A stretch of DNA of 53,980 bases. Origin: Parcubacteria group bacterium (GTDB taxonomy: Bacteria; Patescibacteriota; Minisyncoccia; Phycocordibacterales; JABMOB01). A program made the position numbers and the translations under genes. Within the stretch, counting starts at the first letter, position 1. Every line of letters starts with the position of its first letter. The stretch lies in NCBI GenBank assembly GCA_013204345.1, contig JABMOB010000002.1, forward strand, positions 1 through 53,980. Direction: 5' to 3'. Shown piece after piece: positions 9,111-47,586 of the stretch. A model generated the notes under the pieces. It was not told where the DNA came from. It did no database searches and saw only the letters and a list, made by a program, of their open reading frames with translations.

Positions 9111-9137
9111 CTAGACTTTATAGACTTTTGACTTTCG
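9111..9137. repeat. 9-nt ACTTTAYRG repeat remnant
   Basis: 'ACTTTATAGACTTTTGACTTTCGGCT' downstream of ndk; same degenerate unit as in the ribosomal gaps at 12.6, 13.1, 14.2, 44.2 and 45.7 kb. Confidence 0.6.
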
Positions 9138-9140
9138 GCT

Positions 9141-9164
9141 CGATGGTTTATTCCAATAAACCAT
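9141..9164. repeat. Palindrome over the end of ndk
   Basis: GATGGTTTATT-CC-AATAAACCATC. It contains the ndk stop codon, so the last codons double as one arm of the hairpin. Confidence 0.65.
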
Positions 9165-9762
9165 CAAGATTCACATCATAGAGAATCTTGTCCTGAACAA
9201 GATTGTAATCCGTTAATTCATTTTTACTAAACCAATGTTTTATTTCATCTTCCGCTTCTTTTGGAGAACCAGAGGCATGAACTAAATTTCTCACGGCTCG
9301 AGTATCATTGTCGGACATTTGGTAAGAGTCTAAAACAAAATCTCCGCGGATTGTTCCAACGTCAGATGTTAAAGGTTCTGTTCCTCCAGTTATTTTTCGA
9401 ACAATTTTTACGACATGAGCTCCTTGCCAAACCATAGCAATCACTGGACCGGATGTAAGATATTTTATTAAATTTTTAAGTACTTTTTCTGTAACTTCAA
9501 AGGGGTCCGTAGTAGGAGGGGTCAAACCTTTATCCAAGTAACCTTTTATAGCTTTTTCACCAGTAATACGTCTCCACTCTGGGTCAAGGGTATAATGTTC
9601 CTCTACCAAATCTGCCGACGGCACGAACATTTTTACACCAACAAGTTTTAGCCCTGTTCTTTCATAACGTTTTATAATCTCACCAATAAGTGAGCGTTGA
9701 ATACCGTCTGGTTTTATCACAACTAATGTTCTTTCTGTTTTAGGGTGGTTCGTCGTGGTCAT
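9148..9762 (-). CDS. ndk: Nucleoside-diphosphate kinase with an insertion
   Basis: 204 residues, against about 140-150 usual. 'ERTLVVIKPDGIQRSLIGEII' opens the fold. The catalytic histidine is in 'NLVHASGSPKEAEDEI', the exact Ndk signature. Extra residues lie after 'EHY' as 'TLDPEWRRITGEKAIKGYLDKG...' and again at the C-terminus, enlarging the substrate side. It transfers gamma-phosphate between NTPs and NDPs. It follows map on the same strand after about 60 nt and could extend that operon or use its own promoter. Confidence 0.95.
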   Translation of the reverse strand: MTTTNHPKTERTLVVIKPDGIQRSLIGEIIKRYERTGLKLVGVKMFVPSADLVEEHYTLDPEWRRITGEKAIKGYLDKGLTPPTTDPFEVTEKVLKNLIKYLTSGPVIAMVWQGAHVVKIVRKITGGTEPLTSDVGTIRGDFVLDSYQMSDNDTRAVRNLVHASGSPKEAEDEIKHWFSKNELTDYNLVQDKILYDVNLDGLLE

Positions 9763-12571: not shown

Positions 12572-12618
12572 ACTTTCGACTTTACTTTATAGACTTTACG
12601 GACTTTACAGGCTTTCGG
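12572..12618. repeat. 9-nt ACTTTAYRG tandem repeat, rplO-secY gap
   Basis: Plus-strand reading 'ACTTTATAG ACTTTACGG ACTTTACAG GCTTTCGGC' gives a 9-nt period of slightly different units. It fills most of the 63-nt gap and abuts the rplO stop codon. Confidence 0.75.
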
Positions 12619-13084: not shown

Positions 13085-13120
13085 TACTTTAAGGACTTTA
13101 CGGACTTTGGACTTTGGACT
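13085..13120. repeat. 9-nt ACTTTAYRG tandem repeat, rpsE-rplO gap
   Basis: 'ACTTTAAGG ACTTTACGG ACTTTGG ACTTTGG ACTGG', with units decaying from 9 to 7 nt. A small palindrome GTTGGCAAAGCCGAC follows next to the rpsE stop. Confidence 0.7.
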
Positions 13121-14190: not shown

Positions 14191-14248
14191 TTACTTTATG
14201 GACTTTATGGACTTTCGGCTAGACATAGTCGGCACGGCCGACTATGTC
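14191..14248. repeat. ACTTTAYRG repeat plus a 12-bp hairpin, rplF-rplR gap
   Basis: 'ACTTTATGG ACTTTATGG ACTTTCGGC' (14191-14218) is followed by GACATAGTCGGC-ACG-GCCGACTATGTC (14222-14248), a perfect 12-bp stem with a 3-nt loop that overlaps the last codons and stop of rplF. Confidence 0.75.
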
Positions 14249-43330: not shown

Positions 43331-43543
43331 ATTTTCTTAACGAGCAAAGCGAGTTTTAGAAAATAATGACCCTGTTAAATAACATTTGATGTTATATGGG
43401 CAAAATCTTCTATTCTCTCTGTACTCTTTGTATATTACATATTACTCATTATTAGTTTTTTATCAAATGTTAGTTTTTAAATAATAATTTAAAAACTATT
43501 TAACGGGGTGTGAACATTATAGTCGCTCCGCTCCTTAATGTTC
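43331..43543 (-). repeat. Structured inter-gene element, copy C (long form), rplN-rplX gap
   Basis: 5' hairpin (minus strand) GAACATTA/TAATGTTC (43543-43512) with loop AGGAGCGGAGCGACTA. Core stem CCCCGTTAAAT/ATTTAACAGGG (one mismatch), hairpin 1 AGTTTTTAAAT..ATTTAAAAACT, hairpin 2 AACATTTGAT..ATCAAATGTT with a long loop. 3' hairpin ATTTTCT/AGAAAAT with loop core ACTCGCTTTGCTCGT. It overlaps the first base of the rplN stop on one side and ends 2 nt from the rplX ATG on the other. Confidence 0.9.
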
Positions 43544-44193: not shown

Positions 44194-44245
44194 TAACTTT
44201 ATGGACATTATAGACCTGTCTGCCGCGCTCGGCACAGGCAGGCTT
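44194..44245. repeat. Repeat remnant and hairpin, rpmC-rpsQ gap
   Basis: 'AACTTTATGGACATTATAGACC' is a decayed ACTTTAYRG unit pair, followed by a GC-rich hairpin (CTGTCTGCCG..CGGCACAGGCAG). Confidence 0.55.
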
Positions 44246-45579: not shown

Positions 45580-45603
45580 GGATAATTAATTTAAAATTAC
45601 AAA

Positions 45604-46029
45604 TTATGAATTATCAATTTTAGCTTTTGATTCTTTTTTCGAAGCTGTTTTTGTTTTTGAATCTGACTTTACAGACTTTACAGACTTTGCACTTTCGACT
45701 CTCGGTTCGAGCACGACCGAGATATGGCTTGTTCTCTTGCGCATAGGATGAGCTCGTCCACGAGATGCTGGAAGCCTTCTATATAAAATAGATCCGCCAT
45801 CTACTCTAATTTCTTTTATAAAAAGATTTGAAATATCAATATTTAAATTTTTTGCGTTTGAAACAGCTGATTCTATAAGACACTTCAGCGGAAGACCCGC
45901 TTTTTTGTCCAGAAATTTTAGAGACTGAATCGCAACATCAACTTTTTTCCCTCTAACAAAATTGGCAACAACACGAACTTTTCGCGGAGAGTGTCTATAA
46001 TTTTGCAATGTTGCTGTAGCTGTGCTCAT
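45604..46029 (-). CDS. rplV: 50S ribosomal protein uL22 with a repeat-derived tail
   Basis: 141 residues. The core 'RHSPRKVRVVANFVRGKKVDVAIQSLKFLDKKAG' to 'GRAHPMRKRTSHISVVL' is uL22 (exit tunnel). After about residue 112 comes 'ESAKSVKSVKSDSKTKTASKKESKAK'. The 'KSVKSV' part is encoded by the same ACTTTACAG 9-nt repeat that fills non-coding gaps in this cluster, so the tail likely arose by read-through into such a repeat. Confidence 0.95.
   Translation of the reverse strand: MSTATATLQNYRHSPRKVRVVANFVRGKKVDVAIQSLKFLDKKAGLPLKCLIESAVSNAKNLNIDISNLFIKEIRVDGGSILYRRLPASRGRAHPMRKRTSHISVVLEPRVESAKSVKSVKSDSKTKTASKKESKAKIDNS
45664..45697. repeat. 9-nt ACTTTAYRG repeat inside the rplV coding end
   Basis: 'ACTTTACAG ACTTTACAG ACTTTGC ACTTTCG' on the plus strand; the reverse complement is read as KSV-KSV codons of rplV. 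Confidence 0.75.
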
Positions 46030-47374: not shown

Positions 47375-47586
47375 ATTTTCTTAACGAGCATAGCGAGTTT
47401 TAGAAAATAATGACCCTGTTAAATAACATTTGATTGTTATATGGGTAAAATATTCTATTATCCTCATACTCTGTGCGTGTTACATATTACTTATTTTTGG
47501 TTTTTTATCAAATGTTAGTTTTAAATTGCTATTTAAAACTATTTAACAGGGTGAGTAAAATATAATCACTCTGTTCCTTATTTTAC
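47375..47586 (-). repeat. Structured inter-gene element, copy D (long form), rplW-rplB gap
   Basis: 5' hairpin (minus strand) GTAAAATA/TATTTTAC (47586-47555) with loop AGGAACAGAGTGATTA. Core CCCTGTTAAAT/ATTTAACAGGG, hairpin 1 AGTTTTAAAT..ATTTAAAACT, hairpin 2 AACATTTGAT..ATCAAATGTT. 3' hairpin ATTTTCT/AGAAAAT with loop core ACTCGCTATGCTCGT. It overlaps the rplW stop codon and ends 2 nt before the rplB ATG. Confidence 0.9.

Follow-up and report, generated by a model that had tools for sequence, protein, structure and literature searches.

The window analyzed here, a stretch of 53,980 nucleotides, corresponds to contig C12. Its genome, G000 in our comparisons, is of the Paceibacteria (Parcubacteria-type) and has a size of 756 kb; the relatives with which it was compared belong to other families. 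Among its minus-strand ribosomal genes is rplV, which encodes uL22. Part of the C-terminal tail of uL22 is translated from a short DNA repeat that also lies in gaps between genes. The rplV copy and its surroundings comprise the following features.

45604–46029, minus strand: rplV (uL22), an open reading frame (ORF) of 141 amino acids taken from the ORF list, with the array in its C-terminal tail; Pfam PF00237 at residues 6–108
45666–45695, minus strand: array AAAGTGCAAAGTCTGTAAAGTCTGTAAAGT, read within AKSVKSVKS (Tandem Repeats Finder, match counts and layout)
45696–45700, minus strand: AGTCG lead of the element, the same lead as in the gap copies
45701–45721, minus strand: hairpin CTCGGT..ACCGAG (predicted fold), directly upstream, in the codons for the conserved ISVVLEPR

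The rplV copy holds all three parts of the element (hairpin, AGTCG and array), although its hairpin may be partly native coding sequence. At the array the tail is translated as ...LEPRVESAKSVKSVKSDSKTK.... The adjoining stretch at 45581–45620, covering the end of rplV and the rplV–rpsC gap, is GATAATTCATAATTTGTAATTTTAAATTAATTAT; it resembles a second filler word (of the AATTCATAATT type) and supplies the final uL22 residues, IDNS.

An initial annotation of this DNA had described a 9-nt repeat, ACTTTAYRG, in five gaps and inside rplV, and the count bears this out. The window contains 10 matches where 2.10 would be expected, and none of 100 shuffles reached 10. All are on the plus strand (9115, 12584–12610, 13095, 14193–14210, 44196 and 45666–45683, the last inside the rplV ORF) and read CYRTAAAGT on the coding strand of the ribosomal genes. 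The gap copies were located by sequence match and, for all but the degenerate one, by layout comparison.

12584–12615, minus strand: array in the rplO–secY gap
13086–13115, minus strand: array with steps of 7, 9 and 9 nt in the rpsE–rplO gap
14193–14215, minus strand: array in the rplF–rplR gap, with a perfect hairpin at 14222–14248
9115–9135, minus strand: array after ndk, with a perfect hairpin at 9142–9165 that overlaps the end of ndk
44196–44215, minus strand: degenerate array (one unit and a degenerate one) in the rpmC–rpsQ gap, after a CCTGCC/GGCAGG palindrome

Tandem Repeats Finder reports the rplV repeat at 45665–45688 with a period of 9 and 100% match. Period-9 units are present as first described, but the actual element is a directional composite, more than a plain 9-mer. 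Read on the AAAGT strand, copies are laid out as (T)AGTC + [GA]AAAGTC + AAAGTCYRT + AAAGTCYRT + AAAGT, and the steps of 7, 9 and 9 nt recur. A uniform head-to-tail unit, as in a simple tandem repeat or the TAACTGA repeats discussed below, does not describe these mixed steps and the fixed AGTC lead. The rplV copy reads AGTCG + AAAGTGC + AAAGTCTGT + AAAGTCTGT + AAAGT with the same steps, and many gap copies are identical to it in layout. The first step of 7 nt, not being a multiple of 3, rules out codon duplication and shows that the array is a DNA-level element. Across the whole genome, exact double units number 20 against 0 for the reversed control, and 14-mers allowing one mismatch number 80 against 7 for controls.

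The element is not confined to uL22. In the window genome it lies in frame in KsgA/RsmA (in reverse orientation, NFTDFMDFKLSTG), TsaD (MVKNRKSKVHKV), TrmD (AQSKAYKVYKVRKV) and Fpg/MutM (RVKSRKSIKSIK). Pfam confirmed the family of each host, and alignment with relatives placed each copy in a length-variable loop. These four proteins, together with the shared layout of the rplV and gap copies, lend good support to the earlier proposal that a non-coding repeat had been turned into protein sequence. In G004, from another family, the same word occurs in TsaD (YKVKSKKSK) and, as a full array, in LeuRS (KVVKSIKSVK). The KsgA of G004 has a different word, CCTACAACCT, in the same loop (TYHLPPTTYNLPLTTYNLQ), and G078 has AATACGAAGCACGAAATCCGAAA in the same loop of TsaD; tolerant loops seem to be reused by different words. 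LeuRS of the window genome was dropped as a sixth captured protein because G030 has a similar LQFKVSK. Other repeat words were also seen in the TrmD loop, namely AGAGTCAAGAGACAAGAGTC in G116 (L203), where the gene also contains an inverted CTCTAACCTCTAAACTCTC, and GGAAACTTGAAACTTGAAAC in G089 (L213), suggesting further captures.

The initial annotation had proposed comparing rplV ends in related genomes, and across 42 distinct rplV–rpsC junctions the outcome favored its idea of capture. The array was unambiguous in the uL22 tails of G000 and G116 only. In G116 (L022) it is read at the end of uL22 as KKSIKSKVHK and its inverted partner lies right behind the stop codon, in the gap; the two arrays pair in a predicted hairpin of −20 kcal/mol. 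L056 has a short array in the tail, and in L054 the array is confined to the rplV–rpsC gap. A conserved KSV tail in distant relatives that lack the DNA repeat was not seen at these junctions; the other KSVKS tail, that of L056, is encoded by AAAAGTGTAAAGTC. A filler word other than the array was read in two more tails (L019 and L029); in the tails of G016 and G101 such a word gives KSEARNPK. The element has thus reached this junction in several lineages; since the genomes are of different families, the comparison caught no single recent capture. The suggestion that the repeat explains the Lys/Ser/Ala-rich tails of this ribosome in general does not hold, as 38 of the 42 junctions lack a clear copy.

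What the initial annotation missed is that the repeat forms the ends of gene cassettes. PF05635 is the family of the 23S rRNA intervening-sequence or S23 protein, a four-helix bundle. Some arrays occur as inverted pairs (in G000, G089, G004, G054, G116 and G077), two of which enclose a PF05635 gene, L154 in the window genome and L136 in G116. The window genome has one matching cassette, on contig C15, where PF05635 scores 118 bits and the arrays pair around the ORF in the predicted fold, like rRNA intervening sequences. Solo arrays, the rplV copy included, contain no gene. PF05635 genes were found in 14 of 20 genomes searched, a set picked partly for having arrays. Most of the genes read are flanked by a short-word array on the upstream side and by the inverse of that array on the other; the word varies between genes (TAGTCATTAGT, GTAGGTTGTAGG, AGCTATAAGC, GATTAAGG, AATTTTTAATT, GTAACGTGTAAC and AAAGTC). 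The inverted-repeat score of their flanks has a median of 20.5, whereas 404 control ORFs have a median of 10 (p = 2e-11), and 18 of 26 genes exceed the control 95th percentile. Across genomes, similarity of the flank words tracks similarity of the PF05635 proteins (p = 5e-4 upstream and 0.0025 downstream).

The array word is specific to one clade of these proteins; other clades have words of their own. We delimited the C15 clade by an identity of at least 53% to the C15 copy, which gave 13 PF05635 genes from 13 families, mostly previously unseen. AAAGT arrays on both sides (at least two AAAGT upstream and at least two ACTTT downstream) accompany 11 of the 13 and none of 17 less related PF05635 genes (p = 1.4e-6). 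A variant word, AAAGTTYATAAAGT, is present in 9 of 13 clade-carrying genomes and in 15 of 105 without the clade (p = 6e-5); its sole match in the window genome adjoins the C15 cassette. The link extends beyond one word, as the word in the rplV–rpsC gap of G105 (AGCTATAAGC) equals that of its own cassette, L306. The array-rich G089 and its congener G005, which has neither arrays nor PF05635 genes, fit the same idea; the pair was given no weight because the genomes were partly chosen for arrays. On contig C9 of G101, four PF05635 genes (L302, L321, L322 and L324) with different words lie within ~16 kb.

We consider it probable that a small selfish PF05635 element carries the repeat as its terminal array, and that gene-less ends of such elements fill gaps and are sometimes co-opted as protein. 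A full element would be a cassette in which the PF05635 gene is followed by an inverted copy of the AAAGT-word array that precedes it; in a transcript the two arrays could pair and leave the gene in the loop. Shortened copies that lack the gene, whether lone arrays or inverted pairs around a tiny center, lie mostly between genes. Some may have landed in or joined coding sequence where a loop or tail was tolerant and the frame avoided TAA, which one frame of the repeat unit contains. The uL22 copy, at the 3′ end of its gene, is read as AKSVKSVKS; the tail may be a tolerated passenger. The element may move, and the PF05635 protein may recognize the word. We are close to undecided, leaning slightly against, on a broader proposal in which Patescibacteria harbor a large mobile-element family made up of PF05635 cassettes with clade-specific arrays of short words. 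The four-helix-bundle protein of each element, itself not an enzyme, would recognize the element's word, and enzymes of the host or borrowed ones would do the moving. Much of the spacer DNA would then consist of gene-less copies, taken up again and again into loops and tails of universal proteins.

Several observations weigh against a mobile PF05635 element. The comparison, made with genomes from other families, turned up no empty/filled polymorphism between close strains, and neither a target duplication nor an enzyme was found; flanks of the inverted pairs, read by eye with no empty site to compare, revealed no consistent duplication. Eight of the 26 PF05635 genes do not exceed the control 95th percentile, and flanking structure also tends to occur at operon genes. 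The array-rich G089, G105 and G017 have no detected C15-clade gene. Net loop growth is ~9 amino acids in TsaD, 6 in KsgA, 17 in TrmD and 7 in Fpg, which is not a clean insertion size; the mismatch with element length implies that host sequence was lost with or after insertion.

The arrays might instead be ordinary short tandem repeats, arising by slippage or acting as regulatory sites like TAACTGA, with PF05635 cassettes inserted into gaps that already held them. Such a history would accommodate the arrays of genomes without a detected clade gene, and short intergenic direct repeats with occasional ORF copies are known (PMC4679880). It is at odds with the mixed 7- and 9-nt steps recurring in the same order at unrelated sites, with arrays that are inverted from one side of the PF05635 gene to the other and with a word specific to one protein clade over 13 families, and we judge it unlikely.

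Two further explanations concern the rplV copy. One would make it an accident of a lysine-rich tail, or of in-frame codon duplication, and unrelated to the gap repeats. The lysine-rich uL22 tails of L042, L048 and L049 do yield AAAGT through composition and fit a loose pattern, for which reason tallying KSV-like tails by pattern alone was rejected. An origin of this kind was already disfavored by the length of the first step, and the exact AGTCG lead and 7, 9, 9 layout of the gap copies, the presence of the element in four other proteins and the inverted partner in the adjoining gap of G116 make it very improbable. Still harder to credit is a conserved functional extension of uL22 from which the DNA repeat was derived. 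Most relatives do have a basic tail, with a median of 26 residues beyond the conserved part, but its sequence and length (3–89 residues) are not conserved, the uL22 tail of G004, the nearest relative, is different and contains no array, and non-coding copies number dozens.

A selfish PF05635 element has partial parallels in known systems. In Coxiella burnetii, the 23S intervening sequence (IVS) carries a PF05635 (S23/IVP) gene inside an inverted-repeat stem, has tandem heptamers upstream of the ORF and has been called a selfish element (PMC4990558). The C15 cassette likewise encodes PF05635 between inverted-repeat ends that form a predicted stem around the ORF. Unlike the IVS, the cassette loci read lie between protein genes, outside 23S rRNA; their ends are multi-copy word arrays specific to a protein clade, and gene-less copies occur genome-wide. 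PMC10969869 (citing Ogata 2000, 2002) describes Rickettsia palindromic elements as selfish repeats of ~150 bp with a conserved peptide, found in frame in many unrelated protein genes. As in that description, copies here are in frame in unrelated genes (rplV, ksgA, tsaD, trmD and fpg); unlike it, the elements span ~30–50 nt (arrays ~20–40 nt), and frame and strand vary by host to give different peptides. The TAACTGA direct repeats of Beggiatoaceae and related short tandem repeats are short words in gaps beside genes, ribosomal operons included, with a sporadic distribution across lineages and a few copies in ORFs (PMC4679880); the present element differs from them in its composite 7/9-nt layout, inverted pairs and PF05635 link.

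Short gene-less copies with terminal inverted repeats and a gene-bearing relative also recall miniature inverted-repeat transposable elements, though many present copies are single arrays. Here, however, the gene between the ends is PF05635 and not a transposase, there is no proven target duplication and the ends are word arrays. Avd of diversity-generating retroelements is similar to PF05635 both in sequence and in structure (PMC10053308); the reverse transcriptase and template/variable repeats of such retroelements were not seen here, where no search was aimed at them. A literature search, with subscription literature outside its reach, found no paper linking PF05635 genes to short arrays or clade-specific gap words.

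It has long been an open question what purpose 23S intervening sequences and the S23/IVP protein serve and by what means they spread (PMC4990558). The clade-specific link between PF05635 and the arrays provides a concrete candidate recognition sequence, and binding of the protein can be tested on DNA and RNA with AAAGTC versus TAGTTAGTAG arrays. The same link could account for odd filler repeats in the intergenic DNA of streamlined genomes. Selfish DNA seems to have reshaped not just uL22 but four or more further core proteins, non-coding sequence becoming part of a ribosomal protein and of tRNA- and rRNA-modifying enzymes.

Many copies in the window genome have a short hairpin, often perfect and variable in sequence, just before AGTC. 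Upstream hairpins average −9.3 kcal/mol against a background of −5.0 (p = 9e-5), with no excess downstream. This enrichment is confined to the window genome and is missing from G004, G017 and others; the hairpins of G089 are on the opposite side. A terminator role was rejected as a general rule because hairpins also occur within genes. The idea that a palindrome arm beside an array is an inverted host copy, prompted by TsaD, KsgA and rplV, was left unexplained, the hairpin excess being limited to one genome. Many arrays of G089 (L247–L270) are inverted pairs around a short palindromic center that begins with RRATACA; the hairpins downstream are strong, averaging −13 kcal/mol. A CCTGCC..GGCAGG palindrome repeatedly stands just before AAAGTC arrays in the window genome and G017 (window 44215–44243, L154, L171 and L281). 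Finally, a ~110-nt stretch (..CCCATATAACA..TCAAATGTTATTTAACAGGGTCATTATTTTCTAAAACTCGCTWTGCTCGTTAAGAAAAT) is nearly duplicated immediately upstream of rplX and of rplB, at 43349–43465 and 47389–47500 of the window.
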